From positions 496,001 to 560,000 of the forward strand of contig NZ_JAPONB010000001.1 in assembly GCF_026676115.1 (NCBI RefSeq): a stretch of 64,000 bases of DNA, read 5' to 3'. Position numbers and translations under genes: made by a program. The stretch comes from Salinimicrobium sp. TH3 (GTDB lineage: Bacteria; Bacteroidota; Bacteroidia; Flavobacteriales; Flavobacteriaceae). Below are positions 21,629 through 47,383 of the stretch, one piece after another; position 1 is the first letter of the stretch, and each line of letters begins with the position of its first letter. The notes below the pieces were generated by a model. The model made no database searches. It worked only from the letters and a program-made list of their open reading frames with translations, and was not told the origin of the DNA.

Positions 21629-22996
21629 CTAAGCCTTACTTGTTTTAGGTAGTATGGAGGAAGAAATTTCTTTTTTAATTTCCTTAGCATAAAAATCTGC
21701 AATTTGTTGAGCATAGTCCATTGAAGATTTGCCGATGTACCCAAGGAACATTTTTTCCGTACTGTGGGCTGTTATTTGCATTATTAAGGGGGTTGGCAAT
21801 TTCCCATAAGTATTTGTGGCGAACGATCTCCTGCACACGTGGGAGCTCATTAATTGCCACTTAGGAAAAGATCCTCTGACTTTCCGTTTTTCCCCTTTTT
21901 GCTTCCTCTTTCCTTTTTCATCTTTTGGAATTACTTTTCCATCTTTATCCACCATTTCAATCTTTGTTCCAGGAATTACTTCATTAATTCCTGCCTCCTT
22001 ACAAAGGTCCTTTAGAAGACTATTGAATTTCTGAAGTGAGATGTTATAGGGTAGGCCTTCTTTTAATATTTCTTTAGTTACTGGGAGAACTGGAATCGTA
22101 ACCTGTTTTCCGGTTTTCTGTTGTTTTAACTCAATTACTTCCAACCCATGACGGGTGACGAAATTGTCATCCGTCAGGTTTAAAAGATCTTGGCCTCGTT
22201 GGCCCAAATTGCAGCCCAATAGGAGCCATTTTCTGACGTTCTTTAATGATTGACTAGCAATAGGTGTCTTTTCAATTTTGTTAAGTTCCTGAGGGGTGAG
22301 ATATAATATAAATTCGTTTTTAGACTTGCCTCCTTTTACTTTTTTGAGCTGCGGACTAACTGTGAGCCCCTGAATTTCCGCATCTGCACAAACGGTCTTT
22401 AAATCATCTATTTTCTTCTTCGCATAACTCTCTGAGTAATTTCTCTTTTTAAGCATCCACTCAAGAAAATCCTTACCAAATTTTATATTGACATCCTGCA
22501 CTTTAAGGTTTTTATTGCCCTCGTAACTTTTGATGATCTTCAGAAGATTATTGTAAGAGTCAACGCGGTTTTTGGATAGTCCTAATCCTCCTTTTGAGTT
22601 TTCACGCATTCCAGCTGTATCTATTACAGATTGAATAGCATCAACTAATAAATCACTTTTCGTTTCTTCGCCTGGACAAGATTTTCCATTGAAAGTGTCA
22701 ATCTGTTTTTGAAGCCATTCGCCGCTGATCATGTCTGGAGTGGCTTCATCATAACGATCTATGATTTGATTTTTAAGGTCTCTCAATCTTCTATTGAGGT
22801 TCTTCATCTCGGGGGAATTCCTTTTTACTCCTTCCAGTATTGGACTCTTTTTGCCACTACCAGATAAAATGCAGTTAGAAAGATTTACAATTTTGCCGGT
22901 GCTCTTTGTATAGTCATGTTTCCGTCCGTGAATAAAACGTAGATAAATGGTTACAGGGTCCTCCTTTCCTCTGATTATATATTTCACGGTAGCCAT
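21629..22996 (-). CDS. Tyrosine-type site-specific integrase
   Basis: The protein has 455 residues from the ATG at 22996; the longer reading to 23047 adds 17 residues of poor composition, and ATVKYIIRGKEDPVTIYLRF is the usual N-terminus of Bacteroidota integrases. An arm-binding/SAM-like region fills about 1-240. Catalytic motifs follow: NLGQRGQDLLNL (first Arg), SSHVCRRSFATN (HxxR), TAHSTEKMFLGYI (His and the active Tyr). All key residues are present, so the enzyme may be active. Its 5' end is 164 bp from the direct repeat at 23160, the position expected for an element's own attachment site. Confidence 0.9.
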   Translation of the reverse strand: MATVKYIIRGKEDPVTIYLRFIHGRKHDYTKSTGKIVNLSNCILSGSGKKSPILEGVKRNSPEMKNLNRRLRDLKNQIIDRYDEATPDMISGEWLQKQIDTFNGKSCPGEETKSDLLVDAIQSVIDTAGMRENSKGGLGLSKNRVDSYNNLLKIIKSYEGNKNLKVQDVNIKFGKDFLEWMLKKRNYSESYAKKKIDDLKTVCADAEIQGLTVSPQLKKVKGGKSKNEFILYLTPQELNKIEKTPIASQSLKNVRKWLLLGCNLGQRGQDLLNLTDDNFVTRHGLEVIELKQQKTGKQVTIPVLPVTKEILKEGLPYNISLQKFNSLLKDLCKEAGINEVIPGTKIEMVDKDGKVIPKDEKGKRKQKGEKRKVRGSFPKWQLMSSHVCRRSFATNTYGKLPTPLIMQITAHSTEKMFLGYIGKSSMDYAQQIADFYAKEIKKEISSSILPKTSKA

Positions 22997-23159
22997 AGCA
23001 AAAGCATTTATTATAAAAATAAGCCTTTCCCGACACTTTCCCGACATTTGTTGAAATTATATGTGATCTTTTGATGTTAATAATTATTGTAAACACCTTT
23101 AAATCATGTGTATAGCAGTGAATAGGAATAAATGGGTTTAAATAAAATGAAATTCAAGA

Positions 23160-24552: not shown

Positions 24553-25137
24553 CTACTGTGGCTGCATTACAAGTTGTGGTGCCGGTACTATATTTTCTAT
24601 CGGAGTAGTGGTTTTCAAATAATCATAGATGGCGCGCACATCCTTATCCTCGAGATCCTGATAGGTTTGCCAAGGCATAGGCGGTAGCAGAGACCTAGTA
24701 TTTTCCAGACCTTTATACCTCCCCTCTGTAATTGCTTTTTTAAACTGTTCATAGGACCAGGTTCCAATGCCCGTATCATCAGAAGAGATATTGGCGGCGA
24801 AGGTGGTTCCCCACGGGCCTATGGCTGAGGTCATTTGTGGATGGAAAAGAACCCACTTTTTAGCAGTGATTTTTTCTTCTTCACTTAACTCTTCCAGAGG
24901 CTGTGAGGCATCAAATCCGCTCAACAGACGGTTTGGATCCGGTACGGGACCTTGCGGCGTCATTATTTTTGGAGAATGACAGGCATGGCAGTCCATAATA
25001 GTTACGAGATATTCTCCTCTTCTAATTGACTCCTCCAGAGACAGGTTTACAGGTTGTTCAACAGGAGTGTAAGATTTACTTTCCTGAATGCAGGATGTAA
25101 GACTTAAAAAGCCAAGGGCAAGTAATAGGTTTTTCAT
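24553..25137 (-). CDS. Secreted monohaem cytochrome c, lipoprotein
   Basis: The protein has 194 residues from the ATG at 25137, chosen because it starts a good lipoprotein signal (NLLLALGFLSLTSC). One haem motif CHACH follows EYLVTIMD, and PPMPWQTYQ supplies a candidate Met axial ligand. The middle part (AANISSDDTGIGTWSYEQF) is typical of cytochromes that pair with dehydrogenases. It is 82 bp downstream of the TTHB210-like gene and probably in its operon, under the regulated promoter at 26045-26117. An electron-transfer role at the outer or inner membrane is inferred. Confidence 0.85.
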   Translation of the reverse strand: MKNLLLALGFLSLTSCIQESKSYTPVEQPVNLSLEESIRRGEYLVTIMDCHACHSPKIMTPQGPVPDPNRLLSGFDASQPLEELSEEEKITAKKWVLFHPQMTSAIGPWGTTFAANISSDDTGIGTWSYEQFKKAITEGRYKGLENTRSLLPPMPWQTYQDLEDKDVRAIYDYLKTTTPIENIVPAPQLVMQPQ

Positions 25138-25219
25138 AACATAAAATGCGTTTTTCAAATCTGGTTTAGATACATATAGTTGGGTGTGGCTTCGAAAAGC
25201 CACACCTGTATTTTTAATT

Positions 25220-25978
25220 TTATCTTATGGTCAATCCTGTTAAACTAACGGTATATTCCTTTTTCTTTTGGTCAAAAGAGATCTTATAAGCCGTAGGATA
25301 ATATCTCCCTTCCTGAAGATAATTTTGTGCTAATTCCAGGGGAATATTTTCGCTTTTCTTTTCTTTTAAATAATCTAGAGTAATCATGGGCTCATAGAAT
25401 ATCACCTCTTCGTTGTAAGACCCCATCATCATGACCTGCGTGAATTCCCCTCCATTAAGTTCGGGAGTAGAAGGGTCTACCCAATGTTTTCCCATTTGAG
25501 GAACAGATCCGGGTAAGGGGATATAACTGGCAGGCATAAATCCTGTAGGGGGAAGCTTTTCAGATAAAGGATCCTCCACCCCAATCTGAATGCGCTCAGC
25601 CGAAGATATCATATAAAAGTGCATATCAAAATGAGGAACGTTGTAAACTCCCTCAGGCTCATGTCCATGAGGATTCCAGTCAAATCCAATATGATCAAAA
25701 GGAGTTTTATAAGCTTGTTGTGGAAGCTGTATCTCCAAAAAGGTCATTGTATGAGGAAGATTATTTAAAGCGGATTCGGGAAAGATAAGACCTATTTCCT
25801 CGGGAGCACCGTCCTCATCTATTCTTACAAAGGATCTAATGGTCCCATCCCCTAATTGAGTTGCCGGCCCATGAAAAGTCATTGGAGGCAGGGGAGTTTC
25901 ATCCTGACAGCTGATTGCCGTTAAGCAAATTAGGCTTAGTAAAAAGAGCTTTAAAAAAGTTGAATTAAAGGTTTTCAT
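25220..25978 (-). CDS. TTHB210-like / DUF5602 lipoprotein
   Basis: The protein has 252 residues with a lipobox-like LTAISC near residue 24. The core is rich in His and aromatic residues (FDHIGFDWNPHGHEPEG, VPHFDMHFYMIS), which I recognise as the DUF5602/TTHB210-like pattern, a domain of unknown function that may bind metal through this His cluster. It is the first gene of an operon with the cytochrome c gene, preceded by the conserved 73-bp promoter element at 26045-26117. Confidence 0.65.
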   Translation of the reverse strand: MKTFNSTFLKLFLLSLICLTAISCQDETPLPPMTFHGPATQLGDGTIRSFVRIDEDGAPEEIGLIFPESALNNLPHTMTFLEIQLPQQAYKTPFDHIGFDWNPHGHEPEGVYNVPHFDMHFYMISSAERIQIGVEDPLSEKLPPTGFMPASYIPLPGSVPQMGKHWVDPSTPELNGGEFTQVMMMGSYNEEVIFYEPMITLDYLKEKKSENIPLELAQNYLQEGRYYPTAYKISFDQKKKEYTVSLTGLTIR

Positions 25979-26283
25979 GATTTAATAATTTTGATTAAAG
26001 TGATTAATTGATAATTATATTTGGTTTTGCAAAACTTCCAGAGACAAAGTTGTGTCGAAAAACTTGAGTTTTAAATACCTGATAGACATGTTTTTAATTG
26101 CCAGTGTTCAGGTATTTATTTTTATTCTTTTCTATCGTGAATCTGGTACTGATATTAACTTCTCTGAAATTCCAACAGATTTATTATGTATTTCTTCTCT
26201 GCAGCATCAAAGGAAAGGCTGTACTGGGTTGGATAAAATGCACCCGCCTTTTGTGATCCTTTTGGAAAAGGAATAGTAAAGAT
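25979..26283. other. 305-bp intergenic region with a regulated promoter
   Basis: It carries one copy of the shared promoter element (26045-26117, listed separately) for the operon to the left. A plus-strand frame at 26052-26276 overlaps that element and has no family likeness; it is not called. Nothing else is seen. Confidence 0.5.
26045..26117 (-). promoter_or_regulatory. Shared regulon promoter element, copy 1 (DUF5602-cytochrome c operon)
   Basis: Read towards the gene: AAATACC, 31 bp, GGTATTT, 21 bp, AACTTTG. The arms extend to 11 bp (TAAATACCTGA/TCAGGTATTTA) and are perfect. The last block resembles the TTTG end of a Bacteroidota -7 box; the proximal arm lies where the -33 box would be. 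Predicted 5' untranslated region is about 60 nt. Confidence 0.7.
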
Positions 26284-27168
26284 TCAGCTTTCAGCCACAG
26301 CAGGTACTCTCTGGAATAGTGATTTATTTTCTTTGAGGAAATCCACATAATTTTTGGGAGGCCTGCCCAATACATCAGTCAGCAGCGCTACTTCTTCATC
26401 TGTAGCGATTAAGCCTCTTTTCTGAAATTCGCCATACATGATCCTCCAGTCCTCTACCATCCATTCCGGTACAAACTGTTTGGTCTGTGCAGCCCAGCTT
26501 GCAAGATCATTACCGGCATATTGAACTCTGTAATCCAGCACTCCGGTAAGTATATTCGCAATATCGTTCCCTGTCAACGCATCGGGTCCTACGATAGGAA
26601 TAGAAAGGCCATCAAGATCTGAAGTAAATAAAGCTTTCACAGCTACTTCTGCGATGTCCCTTACATCATTACGACTTAGGCCAATATTCCCTATTGGTTG
26701 TGGATAAACACCATATTTCGTTACAGCTTCATGAAACATGAAATCATTCTGGTAAAAATTGTTGGGACAAACAAAAGTGTAATTAATACCTGAATCTTTG
26801 ATCGCATTTTCGATCAAAACCTTCGATTTTACATGTGGAATGGTTTGAAATTCATGTGCACGATGAATACTCTGGTAAACGATTTTTTTTACCCCGGCAT
26901 TTTTTGCTGCGGCAACGGCATTCATAGCCTGTTCCACTTCGGTTTGGGTGTGGGCATTGACCATAAAAAGCCTGTCAATGTCTAAAAATGCTTTTTGAAG
27001 ACTCTCAGGGTCTCCGGTATTACCCATAACGGCTTCTACTCCTGCAGGTTGAGATTTTGCCTTTTCTTTTGAAGTAGTTAATACTCTAAGTGCTTTTCCT
27101 TCTTTTAGAAGTTCCATTACAACTTCTTTTCCAACGGTACCTGTACCTCCAATTACCAGTGTTTTCAT
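26284..27168 (-). CDS. NmrA-like NAD(P)-binding protein
   Basis: The protein has 294 residues. A Rossmann motif GGTGTVGKEV sits at residues 7-16; the catalytic Tyr of short-chain dehydrogenases is replaced in the usual NmrA manner (KIVYQSIHRA), and NNFYQNDFMF matches the family's substrate region. Relatives are NAD(P)H sensors or quinone/flavin reductases. It has its own promoter of the shared regulon at 27254-27326. A redox-related role is likely, not shown. Confidence 0.8.
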   Translation of the reverse strand: MKTLVIGGTGTVGKEVVMELLKEGKALRVLTTSKEKAKSQPAGVEAVMGNTGDPESLQKAFLDIDRLFMVNAHTQTEVEQAMNAVAAAKNAGVKKIVYQSIHRAHEFQTIPHVKSKVLIENAIKDSGINYTFVCPNNFYQNDFMFHEAVTKYGVYPQPIGNIGLSRNDVRDIAEVAVKALFTSDLDGLSIPIVGPDALTGNDIANILTGVLDYRVQYAGNDLASWAAQTKQFVPEWMVEDWRIMYGEFQKRGLIATDEEVALLTDVLGRPPKNYVDFLKENKSLFQRVPAVAES

Positions 27169-27253
27169 TTTTTAAAAAATTAAATTTGATTGATTGATGA
27201 AGTAGCTCCTATATCCAAATTATTTCATTAGATATTTTAGAAATGCTACGGTA

Positions 27254-27326
27254 CAAAATTGGGTAAGAAAGGAGTATCCTGAAATACCTTATCTATAGGA
27301 TTTTATATACACCAAATCTGGTATTT
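27254..27326 (-). promoter_or_regulatory. Shared regulon promoter element, copy 2 (NmrA-like gene)
   Basis: Read towards the gene: AAATACC, 31 bp, GGTATTT, 21 bp, AATTTTG. The arms extend outwards to ATCCTGAAATACC and GGTATTTTCAGGAT with one extra T. Spacing is identical to the other three copies. Predicted 5' untranslated region about 80 nt. Confidence 0.7.
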
Positions 27327-27431
27327 TCAGGATTTAGATGTACCAGACATAAGGTACCGGCACTATTAGTCAGGAAAAGGAAATCTTGTGAAAAAGAGTT
27401 TCAGGAAATGCAGAAAACCCCCGAATTCAGT

Positions 27432-28088
27432 TTATTCTTCCACAAGTTTATGCTTTAAAGCAAATTTATAGACACCAAGAGAATTTTTCACCCCAATTTT
27501 ACGCATAAGATTTTTACGATGTGTTTCCACTGTTTTGGGACTTATAAAAAGAACATCTGCTATGTCGGTATTTGAGTTTTCATAAGCGATCAATTTGAGA
27601 ATTTCAAGCTCTCTTTCAGTAAGAACGTCCAGTTCATTCTCCTGCTCTTTTCTTTGCTGAAAATTCTGAAGAAGGTTTTGTGCCAGTTGGGTGCTTATAG
27701 ATTGGCTCAGGTAAGGATCTCCTTTCATAACCTGCATAATTGCCATTTCCAGTTCTGCTTTCCCGGTGTTCTTTAAAATATATCCCGAGGCACCGGCTTC
27801 AAGCATAGCGGTCACAGAATCCAGGTCATTTTCCATGGTTAACCCCAGGATCCTGATTTGCGGATATTTCGACTTTATGGCTTTTGTAGTTTCGATGCCA
27901 TTGAGCACAGGCATATTAAGATCTACAATGACAAGATCTGGAGAGAGTTCTTTTAATTTCTCCAGAACTTCGTTTCCGCTTTTCACCGCTGCCAATACCT
28001 GCACTTCTTTTAGTTGTGACAATAAAGAAGATAATCCATCCAGGAACATTTGGTGATCGTCTGCCAGTATTATTTTTATTTTTTCCAT
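27432..28088 (-). CDS. LuxR/NarL-type response regulator
   Basis: The protein has 218 residues. Receiver domain: acidic pair Asp10-Asp11, phospho-acceptor Asp56 in VIVDLNMP, and Lys in GYILKNTGK. A LuxR-type helix-turn-helix occupies about 150-200 (LTERELEILKLIAYENSNTD, then FISPKTVETHRKNL). The gene begins 2 bp after the stop of the histidine kinase, so the pair is one operon. It is the best candidate for the activator that reads the four shared promoter elements at 26.0, 27.3, 33.3 and 37.5 kb (inference from position only). Confidence 0.9.
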   Translation of the reverse strand: MEKIKIILADDHQMFLDGLSSLLSQLKEVQVLAAVKSGNEVLEKLKELSPDLVIVDLNMPVLNGIETTKAIKSKYPQIRILGLTMENDLDSVTAMLEAGASGYILKNTGKAELEMAIMQVMKGDPYLSQSISTQLAQNLLQNFQQRKEQENELDVLTERELEILKLIAYENSNTDIADVLFISPKTVETHRKNLMRKIGVKNSLGVYKFALKHKLVEE

Positions 28089-28090
28089 AC

Positions 28091-31000
28091 CTAAATTTTT
28101 AGGGGAATAGTTATGTTGAAAACTGTCCCACTATTAATTGAAGAATCAATATCCAGATATCCGTTAAGAAGTTTGATGCGGGAATAAATATTCTTTAATC
28201 CAAGGCCGAATCCTGTTACACTTGTGTCAAAGCCTTTACCATTATCCTCTACCAGGAGATGCAGCAAGTCCCCTGTCTCAGTGAGACTAACGTTGACTTT
28301 GGTCGCTGAAGCGTGTTTAATAATGTTTTGAATTATCTCCTGCAGTACACGATACAGTGTAAACTTACATGCTGCGGAAGGTTCACTTTCCAGTCTCTCT
28401 GCATAAAATTTATATTCAATTCCATTGACTACCCTGTTTTTAGCAATGAGTTTTTGTAGAATATCGGCAATACCGCGGTTATTTAGGTCGGGAGGCATGA
28501 GATTATGTGAAATACTTCTCACTTCTTCACAGCTCTCATCAATAAGATCTGAAATATTTTTTAGGAGCTCTTCATTTTCGGAAGCCGTATCTGTTGGCTG
28601 AATCCGGGAAAGATTAATCCTGGTGAGTGCGAGGATTTGACCTAAACTATCGTGCAATTCCTCTGCAATACGTTGCCTTTCTTTTTCCTGGGACTCAATC
28701 ACCGCTTCTATTCGATTCCTTTCCTGCAGTTTAAGCTGTTTGTTCAGGAGGTTAGTGTTTTCATAATAGACGGCATTTGTAAAAGTGGTGCAGGCGAGTT
28801 CTAACTTGACAGGAAAGAGGTCTTTTTCAGCTTCCGAATCAATCCTGCAGTCTTCCAGATAAAATATTGCTATGGTTTCTGCACTTTGTTTTACAGGGAT
28901 TATGGTAATATTCCCGGGTTGCTGTTCTCTGAGATATTCATCTTCGGCGAAAAGAGATTCCCGCAGTAACTCCTGAAGAAGCAATTTTTCGCCTTTTTTA
29001 ATGATGTAGTTTAAAACACTTACGGGAAGCTTCTCCCTAAGATCCTTTAAAGCTTCCTCAACCCGAACGCCCAGGGATTTTGACGCCAGAACCTGCCAGT
29101 TATTGTCTTTAAGTATAAAAATCCCCCCTTTCTTTGCTTTTAGGTCTTTAATCAACAGGTTTAAAAGATATTGTCCCAGCTCTTCTAAAATTATATTCCC
29201 TGAAGGAACATTACGGCGGAGTATCTTCTTAATGGTTTCATAGTGACCGCCAAGCTCAATCTTCTCCTGTGATCGCTTCTTCTTTGGAGTAAGATATCCA
29301 TACTTCGTTTGGAGTTGATCTACTTTCGCCATGGCACCCCAGCGTTTGTAGTTCTTTAGACATATTTCTAAATAATGTTTTGCCAGTCCGGTTCTGTTTT
29401 TGTAGTGATAATACTTAAAAGCTAGTTCTGCAGCAATAGCGGCATGATGAGTGAATTTCATCTTTTGGGCCTGCTCAATGGCACGGTCATACAGCAGGGT
29501 GGCTTCTTCAAAATCCCCTCTGCACTTTGCAATTTCCGCCTGCAGCAAATAAACCTTGTGAAGATAGTTACCCGAACCAAAGGCAGTGAGCCGCTGGAAT
29601 TCCTCAAGTTTCGGCTGAACACTGGAGAGAACTTCCGGAAAAGATTCGGGATTTGAATATGCTGCCTGTAACCTGCTTAAGGAATAAAAGAAAAAATGTT
29701 CCAGCTCGATCTGGAATCCCTTGTAGATATGTCCCAGACTCTCACAAATCTTTCCTGCTTTTAATGCTGCCTCATTATAACCGGCAATATAATTGAGCTT
29801 TTGTAAAGCAAGATTCAAGTGATACCGGCTATTCAGATTTTGTTCCGACTGTCTTAAAAGATCTTTTGAGAATCGGAATTTTCCCTTCTCCAAACCCTGT
29901 TTAGTTCCGACGAGATAATTAGTAAGATCGTCATCGCTGCTGCTGATGAAAAAAATGTGATAATTCTTTTCAAACCTCTTTGTAGCCTCCATATGTTTCA
30001 GAAGGTTCCTGCCTCTATAACAGTCCAGCAGGCGAATGTTGGTAGAGCAAAAGGCAGCATAATGAGGGTCTCCGGCTTCATAGGCTTTTACAACAGATTC
30101 TTTAAGTTTTTTACTGCATATCCTGTAGTGATTATTCCAGGCGAAAAAATTAAGAGTACCTACATAGTAAATGATATGGGAATATCTTTTAAAAGGATCG
30201 TTTTCGATCATCTTAAGAGAAAGTCTTCCCAGGAAATAAGCAAGATCCCGGTTCTCCCGGCTCAGGGAAGAGATGACAAAACTGGCAGAAAAGAGTACCG
30301 GGCTTACAGGGGTATGTCCTTTTTCCACTATGAGCAGGAGACTTCTAATCGTTAGATAAAGATGTTTCCTCACATCGAGGTAGTAAAGAAAGGTGAGGGA
30401 AGTGGTTATGAGCTTTAGCAGGTCCTGATATTCCTTATCAGGATTGAGTAGCCGGGTAAAATCTGTTTTTTCGGTGTAAGCAGCAGCTTTTTCCTGAAGC
30501 AGGCTACAATTCTCCATGTTTTCTTTCTCCATTTTTTCAACCGTGAATGGAAAATGAATGCCGAATTCTCCCAGTATCTGCGCAAAACTGCTAAGCCCGT
30601 GTTCGAGGAGGTGAGAAGTGTTTTTTTGATACATCAATGCAGAACAGATCCTGATTTTGATCAACATAGCTTTCACCCTTTGATGTCGGGTGCCATTGAG
30701 GTCAAGAACTTTTTGAGCATAAGACAGGGCAATCTCAAATCTTTGCAGGAGGAAATTGGTTTCAGCATATCCATAAAAGATGAGATAACCGATACTTTCA
30801 ATTTCAAGTTTCTTTGCTTCAAAGATCCTTTGTAGGGCCGGATCCTTGATCCTGATTGGTTTTTCACTTTCCCTGAAAAATTTATCGGCATTTTGAATAT
30901 AGCCTAATGCAGTTTCAAAAGCCGAGTTGTTGATCGCAAGGCGGGCAGCCTGTATGTTAAGAAGTACAATTTCCTTGGAATAGATCTTTCCTGAACCAGC

Positions 31001-32287
31001 CAGTTCTTTGGTCCGGTTAAGATGATTCACGGCATTAAATAAATCTGCATTCTGGTAATCTCCACAGACTTTGAGCATATAGACTGCAGCTTTCAAGTGC
31101 AGGTCGCATTTTTCTGAATTGGAAAGTAAGGAATTGGCAGCAGAGAAGACGTGGTCATGAGCAAATACGTAAGTTGTCCCCTTCTTTATGAGAAGACCCC
31201 GGGTGCTAAGTAGACCCAAAGATTTCCGGGATTCTTTGTCAAACGGGTCATAAATATTTTGGAGCGCTTCCGGAGTAAAATAGAAACCTAAGCAGGAAGC
31301 AGCTGCAATGAGTTTCTGCTGGTGAAATGGTAAAGCTCTTATTTGCTCTCTAATAAGAACTACAGAATCCTTTTCTCCTCCAAGCCTGGGCAAACGCTCC
31401 CAAAAAAGAGGATTTCCGGGCCCTAAGCTCAATAGGTCCCGGCTTTCGACCGCCTTGATGATCTCTTGTATTCCAAAAGGGTTTCCTTCTGTTTCCATCC
31501 AAAGGTAGTTCGAGAAAGAAGCCAGATTCTCTTTAGAAAAGTTCCATTCCGGTGGGATCATACGGGGAACAACAGAACGGGGAAAAGGTTCGAGTCGTAT
31601 TAGTTTCACCTTGCTACCAGTAAATATATTTCCCAATGGTTGGGAAAGGGCAGAAGAAGGATCCTCGTGCGGACGGTAGGCAGCTACAAGTCTTAATCCT
31701 CCAATCTGCTTCCCTGTCAATTCTTCAAGTAGGTCCAGGGAAGCTCTATCTGCCCACTGCAGGTCGTCAAGAAAAAGAACAACTTCGTATCCGAGTGCGG
31801 TAATACTTTTAAAGAACTTCTTCAGGAAGTAGTAGAACCTTGCTTTAATTTGATGTGAATCCACCTTGTTGGGATACTGAACCAGATGTTTCCTGTTAAA
31901 AAACACTTCCAGATCGGGAAACACAGAGGTGATTACCCTAATATGAGTTTGCAGGGCAGAGGTAGCATTTTCCCGAAGTTCATCAAATTCTTTATCGCTT
32001 AACAGGAGGATCTGTTGACTCCATAAGGTAAATGCCTGACGAAATGCCGAATAAGGGGTGTCTCCCCGGTTATTCTGAAATTTACCATAGAGCTTAAAGA
32101 AGTTTTTTTGCAGATTTTCTTCCAGCACATGTTTGATGAGGCTGGTCTTGCCAATCCCCGCCGGCCCCTCCACGATGAGTAGAGAAGTTTTTTGTGAGTC
32201 CCAAAGAATTTCAGAGATTTTTTTAAATTCTCTGTTTCGACCTAAAAGCCTGTTGGCTGGTTTGGAGATGGTTGGAAGACCAGGCAT
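28091..32287 (-). CDS. Giant sensor histidine kinase: AAA ATPase, TPR-like repeats, GAF, HisKA_3/HATPase
   Basis: The protein has 1,398 residues. The N-terminus carries an AAA_16/STAND-type ATPase: P-loop GPAGIGKTSL at residues 41-50 and Walker B VVLFLDDLQWAD near 180. About 400-1020 is helical and fits TPR-like repeats. A GAF-like domain covers about 1030-1180. The C-terminus is a NarX/DesK-type kinase: AEELHDSLGQ has the phospho-acceptor His (near 1205), and VEDNGKGFD and GFGLGLKNIYSR are the ATP-binding boxes. There are no membrane spans, so it is cytoplasmic. The front half resembles MalT/LAL regulators, but the output is a kinase feeding the LuxR-type partner downstream. The signal is unknown. 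Confidence 0.85.
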   Translation of the reverse strand: MPGLPTISKPANRLLGRNREFKKISEILWDSQKTSLLIVEGPAGIGKTSLIKHVLEENLQKNFFKLYGKFQNNRGDTPYSAFRQAFTLWSQQILLLSDKEFDELRENATSALQTHIRVITSVFPDLEVFFNRKHLVQYPNKVDSHQIKARFYYFLKKFFKSITALGYEVVLFLDDLQWADRASLDLLEELTGKQIGGLRLVAAYRPHEDPSSALSQPLGNIFTGSKVKLIRLEPFPRSVVPRMIPPEWNFSKENLASFSNYLWMETEGNPFGIQEIIKAVESRDLLSLGPGNPLFWERLPRLGGEKDSVVLIREQIRALPFHQQKLIAAASCLGFYFTPEALQNIYDPFDKESRKSLGLLSTRGLLIKKGTTYVFAHDHVFSAANSLLSNSEKCDLHLKAAVYMLKVCGDYQNADLFNAVNHLNRTKELAGSGKIYSKEIVLLNIQAARLAINNSAFETALGYIQNADKFFRESEKPIRIKDPALQRIFEAKKLEIESIGYLIFYGYAETNFLLQRFEIALSYAQKVLDLNGTRHQRVKAMLIKIRICSALMYQKNTSHLLEHGLSSFAQILGEFGIHFPFTVEKMEKENMENCSLLQEKAAAYTEKTDFTRLLNPDKEYQDLLKLITTSLTFLYYLDVRKHLYLTIRSLLLIVEKGHTPVSPVLFSASFVISSLSRENRDLAYFLGRLSLKMIENDPFKRYSHIIYYVGTLNFFAWNNHYRICSKKLKESVVKAYEAGDPHYAAFCSTNIRLLDCYRGRNLLKHMEATKRFEKNYHIFFISSSDDDLTNYLVGTKQGLEKGKFRFSKDLLRQSEQNLNSRYHLNLALQKLNYIAGYNEAALKAGKICESLGHIYKGFQIELEHFFFYSLSRLQAAYSNPESFPEVLSSVQPKLEEFQRLTAFGSGNYLHKVYLLQAEIAKCRGDFEEATLLYDRAIEQAQKMKFTHHAAIAAELAFKYYHYKNRTGLAKHYLEICLKNYKRWGAMAKVDQLQTKYGYLTPKKKRSQEKIELGGHYETIKKILRRNVPSGNIILEELGQYLLNLLIKDLKAKKGGIFILKDNNWQVLASKSLGVRVEEALKDLREKLPVSVLNYIIKKGEKLLLQELLRESLFAEDEYLREQQPGNITIIPVKQSAETIAIFYLEDCRIDSEAEKDLFPVKLELACTTFTNAVYYENTNLLNKQLKLQERNRIEAVIESQEKERQRIAEELHDSLGQILALTRINLSRIQPTDTASENEELLKNISDLIDESCEEVRSISHNLMPPDLNNRGIADILQKLIAKNRVVNGIEYKFYAERLESEPSAACKFTLYRVLQEIIQNIIKHASATKVNVSLTETGDLLHLLVEDNGKGFDTSVTGFGLGLKNIYSRIKLLNGYLDIDSSINSGTVFNITIPLKI

Positions 32288-32460
32288 ACCTTAGCTGTTA
32301 ATCTTTCGACGTTTCTGTAATAGGGGAGAATAAATTTAATTTAAATTCATAAATGAAATTATACTTATCTAAATTTTATGAAATAAATCGAATTTGTCTC
32401 ATTGGTCACTGTGTGTCTGTAAGTCAGAAGTTACCAGTGTAACAGGCCCCTGGTCTTAAG

Positions 32461-32913
32461 CTAAAGACCTTTTGAATATTTAGAATTATTCCCTTCCTGC
32501 AGATAACTTTCCAGCCATTTTACTGCATCTGGAGTTTTTCGGAAAATCCTGATGTGGAAGATCTTTCCAGGGGCTAGTTCCTTTTCCATTTCCAGGCTGT
32601 TAAAAATGTTTTGTGGCGAAACATAAGCCACTTTTGATATTCCGGCTTTATAGAGTCGCATGAGATTAAATCGTTCGACCCAGGACATGTCTTCGGGAGG
32701 TAAAATATTTCCATTGTTGATCTTTATGAGGTAAGCTTTAAAATTTCCGTTGGACATTGCATATAATATCTCTTTAAGTTCGGGTCGCTTTAGCAGGTGT
32801 GGTTTAAAGTGTTCCTGATAAAGAATTGTGCCCGCAGCATTAGATGATAACATGTAATTTGCGTTTTCAGCAAGAATCACTTCCTGGAGATGATGTGGGT
32901 TTAAAGTAGGCAA
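32461..32913 (-). CDS. STAS/SpoIIAA-like small protein
   Basis: The protein has 150 residues with no signal or membrane segment. The C-terminal half (ISKVAYVSPQNIF, then FHIRIFRKTPDAVKWLESYL) matches the SpoIIAA-like (PF11964) end pattern, where an IFR/AxxWL segment closes a STAS-like fold. It follows the 32927 gene by 13 bp and belongs to the operon driven by the regulated promoter at 33258-33330. Function unknown. Confidence 0.55.
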   Translation of the reverse strand: MPTLNPHHLQEVILAENANYMLSSNAAGTILYQEHFKPHLLKRPELKEILYAMSNGNFKAYLIKINNGNILPPEDMSWVERFNLMRLYKAGISKVAYVSPQNIFNSLEMEKELAPGKIFHIRIFRKTPDAVKWLESYLQEGNNSKYSKGL

Positions 32914-32926
32914 TTGAGTAGAGGTT

Positions 32927-33214
32927 TTAATTTACAGAGGTTTTTTCGAACTGTTCATTGGGACTGACCTGGGCCAGGCTTACTACGAGCCGGAAAAAAT
33001 TGGGATTGTCCAGATTTTCTTCCCGGTCCTTAACTGTGACTTCTTTAATAATTTCTGTGTTTTCGACAGGCAGTTGATCCTGAATGGGTAATCCGATCAG
33101 GAATAAAGAAAACATCACCTGTTTTATAAGCAGCAACAGGGTCCAGTAGCTTTTGAATACTCCTGCCAGGCGCTCACTACCGTAATTTCCAAATAACCTG
33201 TCTATCGTTTCCAT
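32927..33214 (-). CDS. Small protein with one hydrophobic segment, function unknown
   Basis: The protein has 95 residues. Residues about 23-45 (SYWTLLLLIKQVMFSLFLIG) are hydrophobic and may span or touch the membrane; the rest is charged. It is first in a two-gene operon with the SpoIIAA-like gene and has a copy of the shared promoter element 44 bp upstream of its start. Confidence 0.5.
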   Translation of the reverse strand: METIDRLFGNYGSERLAGVFKSYWTLLLLIKQVMFSLFLIGLPIQDQLPVENTEIIKEVTVKDREENLDNPNFFRLVVSLAQVSPNEQFEKTSVN

Positions 33215-33257
33215 GTGTTCTATCTTTAGTTCTTAGAAAAGAGTAATTCTTATGATA

Positions 33258-33330
33258 CAAAGGTGTGACCGAAATAAAGTATATGAAATACCGTTTAAGA
33301 GGGGTTTTGTCTACCGTCTATAGGGTATTT
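33258..33330 (-). promoter_or_regulatory. Shared regulon promoter element, copy 3 (32927-32461 operon)
   Basis: Read towards the gene: AAATACC, 31 bp, GGTATTT, 21 bp, ACCTTTG. The arms extend to TGAAATACC/GGTATTTCA. The same spacing as in the other three copies. Predicted 5' untranslated region about 37 nt. Confidence 0.7.
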
Positions 33331-33485
33331 CAAATCGGTGAGCAGTGGGAATTACAGAGAATTCGGAAACATAAAATATGCAAAACCATTCTTTTATCTT
33401 CAGGGTAGACCAAATAACAGAGGGGGAGAATGCACATGGTTTTTCTGTTTTTCTGTACCAAAGAAAGATTAATAGTACATATCTT

Positions 33486-34769
33486 TTATTTCACCAATAC
33501 AACCGAATTCTCAAACTCTCCTTTCTCAATTTCAGGATTTGCAGGGTCCAGTATCCATTTGCCATCTACAATAAAATTATAGGTATGTCTGCCGGGAGAA
33601 ACTTCTGTTGATAAAATCCATTCATCACCCTTACGTTCCATAAAAAGACTCTCCCGCTCCCAAGAATTAAAACTGCCGGTAACTATTACTTTTTTGGCCT
33701 CAGGAAAAGCCTTTAGTTTAAAAGTTAAATGTTTAAAAATGGGTTTATCGGCCTGCTGTTTTTCGATAATATCTGCCAATCTCTTACGTTCAACTCCTGA
33801 ATTTTTTTCCAGAAGATCATGGAGGGCAAGCAGGTGAGCTTCGTGTAAAGCCAATTTAGTGTCTACGAATATATCCGGATTTACTCCCACTCCTTCCCAG
33901 GAACTACCATCAACGGGATCTACGGAGGTTGAATAGGGAACGTTAACACCAAATTTATTGTTAAGCCTCATCAGTTGGAATGGGTGGGATCCTCCGCGGG
34001 TAATATTGCCTATGATTGTTGCCCGTTGCCGCTTTTGCATCAGGAAGGCCAGAGCTTCCCCTCCCGAAAAAGTGCGGCCGCTGGTAAGTACGTAAACCGG
34101 CTTGTTCAGATACTTTTTACCGGGAACCCAGGCGACACTCCAAAATTGTCTTATGAAGTTTGTTTCTCGAATATGAAAATCCATTAGATGCACCGGATCC
34201 TGGAAGAAATAACCTAAAAGGAAAGGGACTGTGTTTTGATCCATACTTCCTCTGCATTCCCGAAGATCTAATATTAAAGCATCTGTGTCGGCTACCTTGT
34301 GCATGGCATCTACGAGTGTGTCCGCTACTCGGTCCAATGGTCCGAAAAGAGGAATTTCCAGGTAACCAATATTACCGGGAAGGATTTCTTTTTTTCTAAA
34401 GCCAAAGCCGGATGAGCCTAAAACCATCTTTAAATATTCTTCCTTCTCTTTCTCGTCACTTTCAACAACATTTTCAGAATTTTCAACAGGATAATAAGTC
34501 AAACCCAGGTGAAGATCCTGTGTTATTTCCCTCAGATCTTCAGTAACACTAAAAGCGAAATCTTCTTCAGAAATGAGACTATCGTAACGACCATTTAGAT
34601 AATGTTTAGTCAATCGCTGTTCAATCTCTTCAGTTGCTTCCTCTTTAACATATTTTTTTGAAAGTATATCGAACATAGATTTCAAAGTGCTCTGTTTTTC
34701 TTCCGCTGTAAGCTGCGCCTGTGCCAGTTGTGATAGCATTAATATTGCTATAAAAGCCTTTAATTTCAT
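33486..34769 (-). CDS. Secreted S41-family peptidase with C-terminal CBM48-like domain
   Basis: The protein has 427 residues with a signal peptide (FIAILMLSQLAQAQ). The S41 core has LILDLRECRG and VYVLTSGRTFSGGEA, where Ser235 is the likely nucleophile, then GNITRGGSHP. No PDZ domain is seen. The last ~80 residues (KVIVTGSFNSWERESL, ILSTEVSPGRHTYNFIVDG) read as a glycogen-binding/CBM48-like Ig fold. This pairing of a C-terminal-processing-type peptidase with a carbohydrate-binding fold is unusual. Substrate unknown. Confidence 0.8.
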   Translation of the reverse strand: MKLKAFIAILMLSQLAQAQLTAEEKQSTLKSMFDILSKKYVKEEATEEIEQRLTKHYLNGRYDSLISEEDFAFSVTEDLREITQDLHLGLTYYPVENSENVVESDEKEKEEYLKMVLGSSGFGFRKKEILPGNIGYLEIPLFGPLDRVADTLVDAMHKVADTDALILDLRECRGSMDQNTVPFLLGYFFQDPVHLMDFHIRETNFIRQFWSVAWVPGKKYLNKPVYVLTSGRTFSGGEALAFLMQKRQRATIIGNITRGGSHPFQLMRLNNKFGVNVPYSTSVDPVDGSSWEGVGVNPDIFVDTKLALHEAHLLALHDLLEKNSGVERKRLADIIEKQQADKPIFKHLTFKLKAFPEAKKVIVTGSFNSWERESLFMERKGDEWILSTEVSPGRHTYNFIVDGKWILDPANPEIEKGEFENSVVLVK

Positions 34770-34838
34770 ATAATTTGAATTTTAATTAATAGATGTTTTT
34801 AGATAAATAAGCGGAAGAACCGGAACTACTGAAAGTTC

Positions 34839-35720
34839 TTACAGTACAGAAACTCTTTCGCTGTCTTTGTGAAGTTCATCTTTTGGTAAGATCGTTTGGG
34901 TATATTCATTTTTTATATAAACATACAAAGCGATGACTGCAGATACCAGCGGCACCATAATTCCGAATTCTCCAATGAAATAATCCGTATTTCCCGTATC
35001 TGCCGTAAGATTGGTATAGAAACTTTGTATGACCCCATTATGTACAGCATGAAATATGACTGCTGGCCAAAGACTGTTTGATTTGAGCCTTAACCATGTT
35101 AAAATAATCGCCCCCGCCAGAACAAGGATGAAAAAACAAGCTAGTTGAAACCAAAGTGGAGTAGCTGCATTTCCATAATTTCCGGATATGATCCCCGGTA
35201 AGTGCCAGAAAAACCAAATACTGCCGCTTATTAATGCTGTATTTCTAAATGTCGTTATTTTGATCATTTCTGGTACGAGAAAACCCCGCCAGCCCAGTTC
35301 TTCTCCCAGAACTAAAATCATATTGGGGAGCAAGTTTAAAATACTGATAAAAAAGAATGCTGAAATAATGATAACTATGTCATTAGGATTATCCATCCCC
35401 AAAGTTAAACGAGCCCTTTCTAAGAAAGTATCCTTGGGCATAGCCCCTAATCCTGATATCCAAATGATGCTGTAAGCAATTCCTCCATATAAAATGGGCA
35501 GCAACCAACCATAACCCATCCATTTTAGATTAAGTTTCCAGCCGAACTCTGAGAATTTTCTCTTTGTGGAAAATGTAGCAATTAAGGCTGCGATCCCCGG
35601 CACCCACATAACGCCAAACATGGACAGAGGTGAATCTGTTGGAAGAAACTGTGTGGCAATGGTTAATACAATCAGCAATACTCCAAAAATTAAAAGCCTG
35701 AAAGGAATCAAATTTTTCAT
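34839..35720 (-). CDS. CPBP-family intramembrane protease (CAAX-type)
   Basis: The protein has 293 residues and about eight membrane helices. The three CPBP motifs are present: LGEELGWRGFL (Glu-Glu and Arg), FFWHLPG (His) and IFHAVHNG (second His, Asn). These form the glutamic intramembrane protease site. The C-terminal tail is cytoplasmic and charged. It is in a minus-strand series with neighbours 70-80 bp apart. Substrate unknown. Confidence 0.85.
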   Translation of the reverse strand: MKNLIPFRLLIFGVLLIVLTIATQFLPTDSPLSMFGVMWVPGIAALIATFSTKRKFSEFGWKLNLKWMGYGWLLPILYGGIAYSIIWISGLGAMPKDTFLERARLTLGMDNPNDIVIIISAFFFISILNLLPNMILVLGEELGWRGFLVPEMIKITTFRNTALISGSIWFFWHLPGIISGNYGNAATPLWFQLACFFILVLAGAIILTWLRLKSNSLWPAVIFHAVHNGVIQSFYTNLTADTGNTDYFIGEFGIMVPLVSAVIALYVYIKNEYTQTILPKDELHKDSERVSVL

Positions 35721-35801
35721 AATAAATTATTTTGAATGTGACTTATAAAAATCACCCACGGTTATTCCCGTCGAAACCGTATCTGAGATTTTACCTGTTT
35801 T

Positions 35802-36521
35802 TTAGATTTCGGGAGTGTATTTAGGCTGAAAATTGGCCGAATGTTTAAGCACATTAATAACAAGTCTTCTTATGCTGACCAAATGGGCAAAAAGAGCAGC
35901 AGGGACTATTATCCCGGGCAACAGGACGAAAGGGAAATAAGTAACTCCAATATTAGGTTGTTCAAATCCATATAGCTGAAAAGGAGTTGGTGAAGACGCA
36001 ACTGCTATGAACATAATGGTTAAAACTAAGCCCAGTCCCAGGAAATTCCATGCAAGCAGCCCTCTATTTCCTAATAGTCCCGCCTTGAAGACTAAATAAA
36101 ATATCACAGGAGCAGTTAGTCCTGTGATTACATCAAAATTATAACCATTAAAGGTCATGATCTGCGGCACCATGCCCGCGGCATAAAGTTGAAAAAGAAC
36201 TATTTCTACAGGAAATCGCACAGTCTGTAAAAGGGTAAGGTCTGTGAGCTCTACAGAATCTATCAATCTTCTTCCTCTTTTTGTTAAAAGCGTTAGAAGG
36301 CAAAATGCCACTCCGGGACCTACCAGGAACAAAAATCGGGGTATAGCAACGTTTACCTCCCTATAGAAACCGGTAAAGCCGAAAAAACTGATAATACCCG
36401 CCCACACCAGGACTAGTATTAGAAAATTTTTTGGCTTTCCGGCCGCTTTGAAAAGCATATAGACAACAAATACTGAAGACAGTATCATAATCAAATGAGT
36501 GAAAAAAGATAGTTTTTCCAT
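35802..36521 (-). CDS. Integral membrane protein, function unknown
   Basis: The protein has 239 residues, about seven hydrophobic helices, and small charged loops (LTKRGRRLIDSVELTD). I do not recognise a family; similar proteins are annotated only as hypothetical. It is 78 bp upstream of nothing but the next gene at 36600 and has no visible regulatory element. Confidence 0.5.
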   Translation of the reverse strand: MEKLSFFTHLIMILSSVFVVYMLFKAAGKPKNFLILVLVWAGIISFFGFTGFYREVNVAIPRFLFLVGPGVAFCLLTLLTKRGRRLIDSVELTDLTLLQTVRFPVEIVLFQLYAAGMVPQIMTFNGYNFDVITGLTAPVIFYLVFKAGLLGNRGLLAWNFLGLGLVLTIMFIAVASSPTPFQLYGFEQPNIGVTYFPFVLLPGIIVPAALFAHLVSIRRLVINVLKHSANFQPKYTPEI

Positions 36522-36599
36522 AATGCCAGAATTTAATTACCGGTCTTTTTAAATATTTAGAGTAATAACAGGGATCTAAAAATTAGCTTTAATTTTGAT

Positions 36600-37472
36600 C
36601 TATTCCAGCTCTTTCAACCAGTCTTTGGCAAAGGATCGGGCTGCCATAACAGGGGCTTCCCCTGCGCGGAAATATAGTTTCCACTGCTTGTCTTTTGCTT
36701 CCAGCTGCGGATCGGCAAATTTGGACACTCCGTTTCTTCCGGGAATTAGTTTTGCGTTAAAGTCCATGCCTTCTGTGTCGGCCAGGAACTTTTCAAGTCG
36801 AATTTTCAGTTGTTTCCTGATTTCTTTTGCAGTTTTTTCCTCCTCTTCTTTCTGTAATCCCTTCAACAATTCCTGCTGTGCTTTTTGATCTTCCAGGTCC
36901 TGTTGTGCCTGCGCATAACTTTTCCTGTTGTTTTCTTTTGCTTCTTTTTCAATTTCCAGCTGTTGTTCTTTATGTTCCTGTTCAAATACGTTCAGCTCCT
37001 TTTCAGCTTCAGCTATTTGTTTTTTCATTTCAGCTTTTTCGGCTGCTCCCAAATAAGGATTGTCGAGAGCCTTTTTCATATATTCAATGCCCTGCCTCGA
37101 AAAGTCGATTTGCATTTGAAAGGATGAAGCTTCCGCAGAAGCAAACTGGGCAGCCAGATTCTCCTCAGCTCCTGAAATATCCTCATAAGTGGCTTCGCCG
37201 GTTCCCATGTAATCGTAGAGGAAATCTTTGGAATTGACATACTCCCTTGCAAATACTGCCAGGGCTGTTACGGCAGCCGCCCTTGCTTCGGGAGAAAGCG
37301 TTTTTGCCAGTTTGTTGACAGGAAATCTGTAGGTTTCCTGTTTAATTCCATTCAGGATCTGGGTTTTTACCTCTTGATGGGTGATGTTTAGGTCATTGAA
37401 AACATCTTTGGGTTTAAAGGCGAGAGTGCCGCCTAAAATAATGCAGCTAAAAAAAAGATAAATCGGTTTCAT
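36600..37472 (-). CDS. Secreted coiled-coil protein, function unknown
   Basis: The protein has 290 residues with an N-terminal hydrophobic signal (YLFFSCIILGGTLAF). Residues about 125-235 are strongly charged and helical (E/K/Q-rich, AEKELNVFEQEHKEQQLEIE), forming a long coiled coil. The conserved-looking end is LYFRAGEAPVMAARSFAKDW. It carries a copy of the shared promoter element 32 bp upstream of its start, so it belongs to the local regulon. Function unknown. Confidence 0.55.
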   Translation of the reverse strand: MKPIYLFFSCIILGGTLAFKPKDVFNDLNITHQEVKTQILNGIKQETYRFPVNKLAKTLSPEARAAAVTALAVFAREYVNSKDFLYDYMGTGEATYEDISGAEENLAAQFASAEASSFQMQIDFSRQGIEYMKKALDNPYLGAAEKAEMKKQIAEAEKELNVFEQEHKEQQLEIEKEAKENNRKSYAQAQQDLEDQKAQQELLKGLQKEEEEKTAKEIRKQLKIRLEKFLADTEGMDFNAKLIPGRNGVSKFADPQLEAKDKQWKLYFRAGEAPVMAARSFAKDWLKELE

Positions 37473-37882
37473 GTGTTTTCAGTTTAAGTTGTGATCTGAT
37501 ATACAAAGTTGTGGGTTAACCGGAATTTATGAAATCCCCTCATACATGTATTTAAGCTGCCTTGTTCAGGGTATATTTTTTTGTGTTTACCTACACTCTA
37601 ACAGGTAGATAAGAGGTTTTTCTATAGGAATGAAAAAAGGGAGGTAAGAAAATTTTAAGCTGGCATTTTGGAAGATTACTTAATTACATATAGTTATTCC
37701 TTTTCATGGTTCTATCAGGCATTGCAAGAGAAAACGGAGTTTCAATAATATTTTTGATTAAAGGCCATTCCAAATTTCCCACCTCAAAACCACACCGGAT
37801 CGTTACTAATATTTCAGGGATTCATATATAGCGATGTAACATGACTGATTCTTAGAAGTCTACATTAAAAAACACATGTTAT
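37473..37882. other. 410-bp divergent intergenic region
   Basis: It holds the fourth promoter element (37504-37576) for the minus-strand gene. The rest, upstream of the plus-strand DoxX-like gene at 37883, shows no clear promoter pair or structure. Confidence 0.5.
37504..37576 (-). promoter_or_regulatory. Shared regulon promoter element, copy 4 (36600 gene)
   Basis: Read towards the gene: ATATACC, 31 bp, GGGATTT, 21 bp, AACTTTG. The arms are the most divergent of the four, but spacing is exact, and the 31-bp core resembles that of copy 1 (TGAACA, TTAAA and ACATGT in the same order). Predicted 5' untranslated region about 25 nt. Confidence 0.6.
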
Positions 37883-45341: not shown

Positions 45342-45711
45342 AAATAAAATTCTGGTAGTTGATGACGATTCGGGAATTGGGGAAATGCTAAAAACCCTTC
45401 TCGAGTTCTACGAATATGATGTCACTGTAACCGCAAAACCCGAAGAAACCGAAAAACTTATCATTGCCGAAAAGGTTGATTTGGTGCTTCTCGACATGCT
45501 CATCTCTGGCGTTAATGGTACAGACGTCTGCGCCCGTCTTAGAAACAATCCTCAAATGGAAAATATTCCGGTTCTAATGATGTCTGCCCTTCATGATGCC
45601 GGTACCAAATGCAGGGAGGCCGGGGCCAATGATTTTATTGCCAAACCTTTTGAAATGGATGATCTGGTTAATAAAATAGGTGTTATCCTGGAATCCAAAG
45701 CGAAAAGTTAA
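45334..45711 (+). CDS. Single-domain response regulator (CheY-like)
   Basis: The protein has 125 residues from the ATG at 45334 (a longer frame starting at 45307 would overlap the kinase gene more). The receiver has the acidic pair in VVDDDSG, phospho-acceptor Asp54 in VLLDMLIS, Ser in MMSALHD and Lys in FIAKPFE. There is no output domain, so it probably passes phosphate or acts by protein binding. It overlaps the kinase stop and, convergently by 4 bp, the GDPD gene stop. Confidence 0.9.
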   Translation: MNKNKILVVDDDSGIGEMLKTLLEFYEYDVTVTAKPEETEKLIIAEKVDLVLLDMLISGVNGTDVCARLRNNPQMENIPVLMMSALHDAGTKCREAGANDFIAKPFEMDDLVNKIGVILESKAKS

Positions 45712-46622: not shown

Positions 46623-46733
46623 TTTCCAATTAGTTCTATCTAAAGATATAGAAATGCCGCTTCAAAAACCAGAAAGCCGCCCCTGATTAGGAACGGCTTT
46701 AAAATATTTTTGTGAAACTTTTAGAGAAATATA

Positions 46734-46970
46734 CTATTCTATCTTTTCCTGCTCCACCTGGTCATCGGTCTCATGGATCTCTTCCTCGATCTCCTGTTCT
46801 ACTTTCTCTGCACCCTTTTCTACTTCTCTGGCAGCACGTCGTGTACCGTCTTCAATGTCCTCACCTATTGCCTCTACAGCATCTTCTGTTTTTTCCTGGG
46901 TACTTTCCCTACAAGAGTAGGTTGTCAAGGTCACTCCTGTAATCAATAAACTCAAAAAAATTTTTTTCAT
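46734..46970 (-). CDS. Small acidic lipoprotein, paralogue 1
   Basis: The protein has 78 residues: signal with a lipobox (LTTYSC, Cys20), then a highly charged, Glu-rich helix (EAIGEDIEDGTRRAAREVEK) to the end. The N-terminal signal and the charged repeat resemble the neighbouring product of 47042-47281. Function unknown; such helical lipoproteins may coat or stabilise the envelope. Confidence 0.6.
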   Translation of the reverse strand: MKKIFLSLLITGVTLTTYSCRESTQEKTEDAVEAIGEDIEDGTRRAAREVEKGAEKVEQEIEEEIHETDDQVEQEKIE

Positions 46971-46990
46971 AACTGCTATTTTTTAAAGTA

Positions 46991-47020
46991 AAAAGCCATA
47001 AGAGTAAACTTATGGCTTTA
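46991..47020 (-). terminator. Intrinsic terminator between the two acidic lipoprotein genes
   Basis: AAAGCCATAAG (46992-47002) pairs with CTTATGGCTTT (47009-47019), loop AGTAAA. It lies 22 bp after the 47042 gene on the minus strand, so each paralogue has its own end. Confidence 0.6.
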
Positions 47021-47041
47021 AATTCTTTAAAAAAGAAGGAA

Positions 47042-47281: not shown

Positions 47282-47383
47282 GTGAGTATGTTTAATTAGT
47301 TGAAACAAATTTAAACTATTTTTTATATATGCAAAGAAGTGTTTAAATAAACTGCTGCAGCCTGAAGGTATAAGGTGAAGTTT

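Follow-up and report, generated by a model that had tools for sequence, protein, structure and literature searches.

What controls a set of promoters that share the same 73-bp element, spaced to the base, within a short stretch of one flavobacterial genome? The question is raised by a 64,000-nucleotide stretch of DNA from Salinimicrobium sp. TH3 (hereafter the window), which is part of contig 11 of a 3.69-Mb genome. An initial annotation described four such elements, and all four are present on the minus strand: S1 (26045-26117), S2 (27254-27326), S3 (33258-33330) and S4 (37504-37576). Towards the gene, each reads AAATACC, 31 bp, GGTATTT, 21 bp, a 7-mer ending in TTTG, and then T. The spacing is exact in all four; the arms are perfect in three and carry two mismatches in S4 (ATATACC/GGGATTT). 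Judging from the sequence, these elements are very probably operators of a NarL/FixJ-family response regulator encoded among them (27432-28088) and of its paralogue on contig 18, which would activate transcription through tandem dyads.

Elements within and beyond the window

Is the element more than a chance repeat? When the arms may carry at most two mismatches in their 14 positions and TTTG must stand in its fixed place, these four are the only matches in the window on either strand, as the initial annotation had said; 200 first-order Markov simulations of the window average 0.015 matches and never exceed 1. The arms alone behave differently. With up to three mismatches they match 11 times in the window against a mean of 6.2, weakly above chance given that 5 of 100 shuffles reach 11; with up to two mismatches they match 51 times across the whole genome on one strand, near the 38 of a reversed-pattern control. 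Because the arms alone are near chance, the signal lies in the combination of exact arms with a TTTG box at a fixed distance. The genome contains five exact arm pairs (three within the window, two on contig 18), where ~0.04 would be expected from the base composition of the window, and all five sit in elements. Arm pairs with one mismatch occur at three places, one of which (C11:592198) is an element, with CATCTTTG at exactly the same distance. The intragenic one-mismatch pair at C11:630320 is not among the matches of a sequence profile of the element and was excluded before that profile was built; the same holds for C21:46803.

The profile, built on seven of eight candidate sites, was applied to the genome by scoring 150 of 1965 first-look candidates. 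It returns seven elements at E ≤ 1.9e-15, and the next match, at 0.055, is about 43 bits lower. Because the profile was trained on these seven, the gap reflects an absence of intermediate sites and not an independent confirmation. All seven lie upstream of open reading frames, and the full element is not scattered at random through the genome. The initial annotation had proposed a local regulon. One small regulon it appears to be, but not only a local one: the seven sites are spread over two contigs. Three copies fall outside the window, two of them flanking a paralogous two-component system on contig 18. S5 stands in front of the first gene of this second system copy, and S6 separates the regulator gene of this copy from one whose product shows a weak, sub-threshold beta-barrel match. 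S7 precedes a gene for a 484-aa protein without a Pfam match. The arm pattern by itself, independent of the profile, leads to the same place, since the two exact arm pairs on contig 18 lie on either side of the genome's single additional full-length kinase of this type, with the paralogous regulator behind it.

Tandem dyads and the -7 box

What would bind such an element? The initial annotation described a 31-bp core between two arms. The arms and their spacing are real, but the core contains further half-sites, GGTA and (A)CC, such that AAATACC-31-GGTATTT is better read as two apparent tandem dyads, TACC-N8-GGTA (D1) and a weaker one (D2). Numbering from the first base of AAATACC, D1 is centered at 11.5 and is found, with at most one mismatch, in 11 of 11 promoters, seven in this genome and four in Salinimicrobium xinjiangense DSM 19287 (G010). 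On the minus strand of the window it spans 26099-26114 in S1 (TACC-N8-GGCA, one mismatch), 27308-27323 in S2 (one mismatch), 33312-33327 in S3 (perfect) and 37558-37573 in S4 (one mismatch). D2 is an imperfect dyad that combines a strong proximal half, GGTATTT, with a weak distal half, AAAAnCC, 8-9 bp away; in S1 it would extend over 26076-26091 (minus strand).

A third copy of the dyad (D3), missed by the initial annotation, is centered at -21.5 or -22.5, 33-34 bp upstream of D1. It is present at three of the four window sites, on the minus strand: S1 (26133-26148, one mismatch here and none in the S. xinjiangense orthologue), S2 (27341-27356, a perfect TACC-N8-GGTA) and S4 (37592-37607, one mismatch). 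It also occurs in S6, S7 and the S. xinjiangense orthologues of S1, S2 and S4, and is absent from S3, S5 and the S3 orthologue. The two-component system's own promoters thus lack D3, and all other element promoters have it. A D3-like dyad in five of seven promoters compares with a mean of 0.10 and a maximum of two of seven in 5000 first-order Markov resamples of the upstream regions, a comparison in which the fixed offset is not counted. At a spacing of 33 bp and with at most one mismatch, the D3-D1 tandem occurs at three places in the genome, S2, S6 and S7, all of them elements; the other 16 places have three mismatches, and the total of 19 compares with 22 in a reversed control. At 34 bp and two mismatches, the tandem is found at S1, S4 and two other places, four in all against three in the control, and S1 of S. 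xinjiangense is perfect. Inverted repeats of 16 bp, the size of a NarL-type 7-2-7 operator, are hence found at D1 in 11 of 11 promoters and at D3 in five of the seven in this genome. A single wide 45-bp palindrome is disfavored by the inner GGTA half-sites and the extra upstream dyad, which show a 16-bp unit.

Inverted repeats, which these elements are, can also work at the RNA level by forming a hairpin or a terminator. That they do so here is extremely improbable. A transcript from this promoter would not include them, as the predicted -7 box comes after them; arms of 4-7 bp around loops of 8 and 31 nt should, by reasoning and not by folding, make poor hairpins; and no Rfam match is found in the window at gathering scores.

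How would a regulator bound to these dyads act on the promoter? Sigma-A promoters of the Bacteroidota have a TTG box at -33. The elements end in a box that reads CAnnTTTG in all seven copies, at 26045-26052 in S1 (CAACTTTG), 27254-27261 in S2 (CAATTTTG), 33258-33265 in S3 (CACCTTTG) and 37504-37511 in S4 (CAACTTTG), all on the minus strand. In PMC9723704, the flavobacterial sigma-A -7 box is given as TAnnTTTG at -12 to -5, and the position of the boxes here was assigned by comparison with it. With CAnnTTTG placed at -12 to -5, the centers fall at about -43.5 for D2, -66.5 for D1 and -99.5 or -100.5 for D3. The idea that TTTG is the end of a -7 box agrees with its fixed distance in all seven elements. 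Only one of the seven promoters has a TTG within the 32 nt that precede the -7 box. The further proposal that the proximal arm takes the place of the -33 box, such that an activator would be needed, gains support from both observations, the constant TTTG distance (7/7) and the lack of a -33 TTG (6/7).

The same geometry bears on an unlikely alternative, that the regulator is a repressor that blocks the -33 region. D2 overlaps this region, so a bound protein could exclude polymerase. Both the lack of a -33 TTG in six of seven promoters and a distance from dyad to -7 box that is constant to the base in all seven are, on the other hand, expected for activation and not needed for repression.

Conservation follows the same units. 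From TH3 to S. xinjiangense, changes are found at 3 of 140 positions in the half-sites and -7 box, compared to 46 of 567 elsewhere (p = 0.006), or 36 of 557 once gap columns are dropped (p = 0.03); these position classes were chosen after the sites were seen. Over the 21 pairs of elements, pairwise identity is 0.92 in the half-sites and 0.85 in the -7 box. It is lower in the inner linkers (0.44, AAAAnCC included), the spacer (0.41), the sequence immediately downstream (0.42) and the upstream flank (0.29); chance alone would give 0.26. The pairwise values speak to the idea that the elements are a dispersed repeat, or a promoter copied by duplication, with letters shared by recent descent. The two-component system is itself duplicated, and S3/S5 and S6/S7 share letters outside the half-sites as well (0.63 and 0.56 in the linkers, 0.70 and 0.60 in the spacers), with the linkers of S2/S6 and S4/S5 also reaching 0.63. 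Such descent is nonetheless very unlikely to explain the elements, given that identity is high in the half-sites and -7 box and low in the linkers, spacer and flanks (0.29-0.44), and that the downstream genes differ, S3/S5 excepted.

Activation by tandem regulator dimers is proposed here by analogy with the Escherichia coli ogt promoter, to which the elements come close in dyad size, in the distance from D3 to D1 and in where D2 and D1 are placed. As described in PMC7419079, the NarL dimer binds 7-2-7 inverted repeats; it activates ogt through sites at -44.5 and -77.5, and activation from a site at -67.5 is documented as well. In both cases, 16-bp inverted-repeat sites, putative ones here, for a dimer of a NarL-family response regulator stand in tandem upstream of one promoter; the two ogt sites are 33 bp apart from center to center, as are D3 and D1 here (33 or 34 bp), and the proximal site abuts the -35/-33 region. 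Unlike ogt, the output promoters here have three sites with a second spacing of ~23 bp, a Bacteroidota-type -7 box without a -33 box, a different kinase and no known link to nitrate.

The two-component system, its genes and its distribution

Which protein would read the element? The candidate, not named in the initial annotation, is the 218-aa product of 27432-28088 (minus strand, between S2 and S3), which combines a receiver with a GerE helix-turn-helix (Pfam Response_reg 5.1e-26, GerE 6e-20). Both PF00072 and PF00196 are above cut-off, which places the protein in the NarL/FixJ family, and its best structure matches, made by sequence, are VraR (5hev, 1.3e-39) and NarL (1a04, 2.5e-32), members of the same sequence family. 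It is not NarL itself, the nitrate regulator: it scores below the cut-offs of the NarL-family models, with 139.1 bits for PRK10651 against a cut-off of 250. The adjacent gene (28091-32287, minus strand) encodes a 1398-aa sensor kinase with an AAA_16 ATPase, a long middle region without a Pfam match, and HisKA_3 and HATPase_c domains, and its adjacency suggests that it is the partner of the regulator. The AAA-ATPase front sets it apart from the VraS and NarX kinases. Multi-domain kinases with such a front align to its N-terminal ATPase and long middle at 22-29% identity over up to ~1170 residues, and their open frames are mostly 1690-1866 codons long, compared to 1398 aa here. One plasmid record among these relatives, from Nostoc sp. 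MS1, is annotated "ATP-binding sensor histidine kinase."

S3 stands upstream of a row of genes for a 95-aa protein (32927-33214), a 150-aa protein (32461-32913), the kinase and the regulator, all on the minus strand. The second system copy, on contig 18, has the same gene order (88, 144, 1403 and 218 aa), likewise with an element in front. Between the copies, the kinases are 52% identical, the regulators 78% and the 150-aa proteins 64%; between this genome and the orthologue, regulator identity is 98%. A third full-length kinase of this type was not found in the genome. The stretch SPKTVETHRKNLMRKI, identical in both regulators, presumably holds the recognition helix of the helix-turn-helix; with this helix unchanged between them, each of the two systems should act on all seven promoters. 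The 88-aa protein (L016:8627-8893) resembles the 95-aa protein by eye. The 150-aa protein, without a Pfam or NCBIfam match and conserved in both copies (L016:8924-9358 on contig 18), is encoded directly before the kinase in each and is a possible kinase accessory; a structure prediction with three sequences gave a mean pLDDT of 41.1.

A circuit can be proposed from the computed elements, their spacing, the dyads and their co-occurrence with the system. Each regulator would be paired with its ~1400-aa AAA-ATPase/HisKA_3 kinase, which some signal would activate. The phosphorylated regulator would then bind as dimers to the tandem 16-bp TACC-N8-GGTA dyads, and the dimer at D2, standing in for the missing -33 box, would bring sigma-A polymerase to the CAnnTTTG -7 box upstream of the predicted start sites. 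Through S3 and S5, the circuit would be positively autoregulated. The output promoters under the proposed shared control (S1, S2, S4, S6 and S7) carry D3 and hence probably differ in threshold or strength.

Which genes would such a circuit control? S1 lies upstream of a gene for a TTHB210-like (DUF5602) protein (25220-25978) and, as the probable second gene of the same transcript, a cytochrome c gene (24553-25203). S2 precedes the gene for an NmrA-like NAD(P)-binding protein (26284-27168). S4 precedes a gene for a 290-aa protein (36600-37472) that looks coiled-coil-like by eye; its transcript would run over 33486-37472 and include, in addition, 35802-36521 (neither of these two with a Pfam match), an Rce1-like gene (34839-35720) and an S41 peptidase gene (33486-34769). 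All of these genes are on the minus strand. The cytochrome c and NmrA-like targets give a hint, and only a hint, of a redox flavor. A defense role of the neighbors is not supported by a comparison of nine proteins with padloc, in which the sole match was a weak one to the ATPase part of the kinase.

Do elements and system travel together? Scans of 149 genomes, this one included, scored the best 29 profile candidates and the best four kinase candidates per genome, with stricter filters. Profile matches below 1e-10 occur only in Salinimicrobium sp. TH3 (seven) and S. xinjiangense (four), and full-length kinase matches only in the same two (two and one). The other kinase matches listed cover the kinase end only (from residue 1093 or later) or the front only (G102, G095 and G113). 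Within the genus, a regulator of at least 77% identity is found in these two of 12 genomes, two of which are ~75% complete; G004 has two regulators at 36-39%. In a sample of 397 family genomes without S. xinjiangense, strong elements and a close kinase are present only in TH3, with one further profile match (G070, 8.3e-6) and distant kinase fronts in five other genomes. Among 395 genomes of the phylum, 15 besides TH3 hold distant relatives of the kinase front only, in open frames of 1709-1866 codons. An exact scan of genome contigs with short peptide patterns, of a kind that misses distant relatives, returned one relative, S. xinjiangense; plasmids held only relatives below 25% identity, and a scan of viral contigs found none. 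None of seven loci with distant kinase fronts at 22-29% identity (L103 and L104, in G102 and G095, and L116-L120, in G321, G251, G437, G035 and G406) shows, within 14-19 kb, tandem dyads or a match at E ≤ 1e-3 to a NarL-type regulator or the 150-aa protein, and in none does the gene with the kinase front also match the HisKA_3 end.

This co-occurrence helps to weigh the idea that another transcription factor binds the elements, for example as a dimer spanning the outer AAATACC and GGTATTT arms, with the two-component system merely one of its targets. The outer arms are indeed the most conserved part, and the operon of the system carries an element and would be a target in any case. What makes such a factor improbable is that two different copies of the system each carry elements, that strong elements and the full-length kinase mark the same 2 of 149 genomes, and that the inner GGTA half-sites and D3 point to a 16-bp unit and not a 45-bp one. 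In addition, no other regulator gene was noticed in both neighborhoods in lists of open reading frames, among which some neighbors were scanned. The NarL/FixJ regulator is the most likely one to bind them.

How did two species come to share the system? The window segment 23161-37650 (~14.5 kb) is 90-95% identical to S. xinjiangense where the two align, compared to 68-70% in the flank at 43128-48177. A phage-integrase-family gene (21629-23047) lies just outside, and strong elements together with the full-length kinase are lacking in 10 of the 12 genus genomes, two of them incomplete. The contrast in identity, the integrase and the distribution in the genus point to a module exchanged horizontally, and the 14.5-kb segment is probably such a shared module. 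Its apparent boundary in S. xinjiangense lies ~300 bp from a contig end. The module there has no Rce1-like gene at this place and has two extra genes (L101:7984-8496 and L101:17876-18631), one cupin-like and the other a second TTHB210-like gene, which scores 26.5 bits against a cut-off of 26.6. A broader proposal can be put forward tentatively, with the balance slightly against it: that the two paralogous pairs of AAA-fronted kinase and NarL-type regulator, with sensors that have diverged to 52% identity, belong to a horizontally shared and largely self-contained signaling module and converge on one operator code, in which promoter output is set by dyad number, two at the autoregulated promoters and three at the output promoters.

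Weighing the proposed activation by tandem dimers

Several observations weigh against the regulator as the activator of all seven promoters. First, the first base of the -7 box (element position 66) is C in all seven, where the flavobacterial consensus has T; C at this place may mark weak, activator-dependent promoters. Second, not all dyads are equally secure. The 34-bp D3-D1 pattern with two mismatches is at control level in this genome, so the case for D3 in S1 and S4 depends on where it lies and on the S. xinjiangense copy of S1, which is perfect; the poor distal half of D2 and its spacing of 8 or 9 bp make it a less certain dimer site than D1 or D3. Third, only the TACC core and the 16-bp size match NarL sites; past the core, half-site positions often depart from the NarL heptamer consensus, TACYYMT, where a few sites were compared by eye. 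Fourth, S7 lies about 60 kb from the nearest system copy, that in the window. Fifth, the system occurs in two genomes only, and the four elements of S. xinjiangense are orthologues of the four in the window, so they count for little as independent evidence. Sixth, at 28 loci with weak profile matches (L044-L071), no relative of the regulator is encoded within ~1.5 kb on each side.

Do weak matches say anything about a wider use of the design? Four of them, in G070 (8.3e-6), G106 (6.2e-5), G054 (1.6e-4) and G027 (1.9e-4), include three with one dyad at up to one mismatch and one with none, and the tandem arrangement occurs in none of them. Seven of the 28 loci have a GGTATTT-like 7-mer (at most one mismatch) ~24 nt before TTTG, as the profile itself selects for. 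The site in G106 (same order; L126:9579-9660), the second-best weak match outside the two genomes, lacks D1 and reads TACT-N8-GGTATTT, 21 bp, AGCTTTG. It is upstream of a 192-aa gene and divergent from two neighboring genes (6846-9474), one for a NarL-type regulator with 31% identity to the one here and one for a HisKA_3-type kinase of 667 aa, 30% identical in the kinase end. A second match in G106 has neither the 21-bp distance to AGCTTTG nor a NarL-type neighbor. The first site may be a case of the same design serving a more distant regulator; as one case among weak matches, it can also be luck, and it leaves the likelihood of the main proposal as it was. On this one distant example, NarL-type activators in the Bacteroidota may more generally use a proximal dyad set 21 bp from the -7 box. 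Separately, the G054 match includes a perfect D1-like dyad and an AAAAC tract (AAATACCTAATATTGGGTATATAAAACAC, L046:1505-1533) upstream of an ATG at ~1617, as a single site.

What would activation through tandem dyads mean? In titles and the beginnings of abstracts of the open-licence literature, among the matches listed, no operator of a NarL/FixJ regulator in flavobacteria is described; nor, on the same footing, is this element in matches on Bacteroidetes NarL-type operators or Salinimicrobium regulation, and the word TTHB210 is absent from the matches listed. If the proposal is true, it would describe a complete small circuit, with its regulator, operator, seven promoters and spacing. The circuit would assign a regulator to genes of unknown function, including those for TTHB210-like, cytochrome c, NmrA-like and several family-less proteins. 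The existence of two-dyad and three-dyad promoters, and of two kinases with one operator code, poses direct experimental questions. Finally, the circuit would show how an activator can substitute for the -33 box of the unusual sigma-A promoter of the Bacteroidota.

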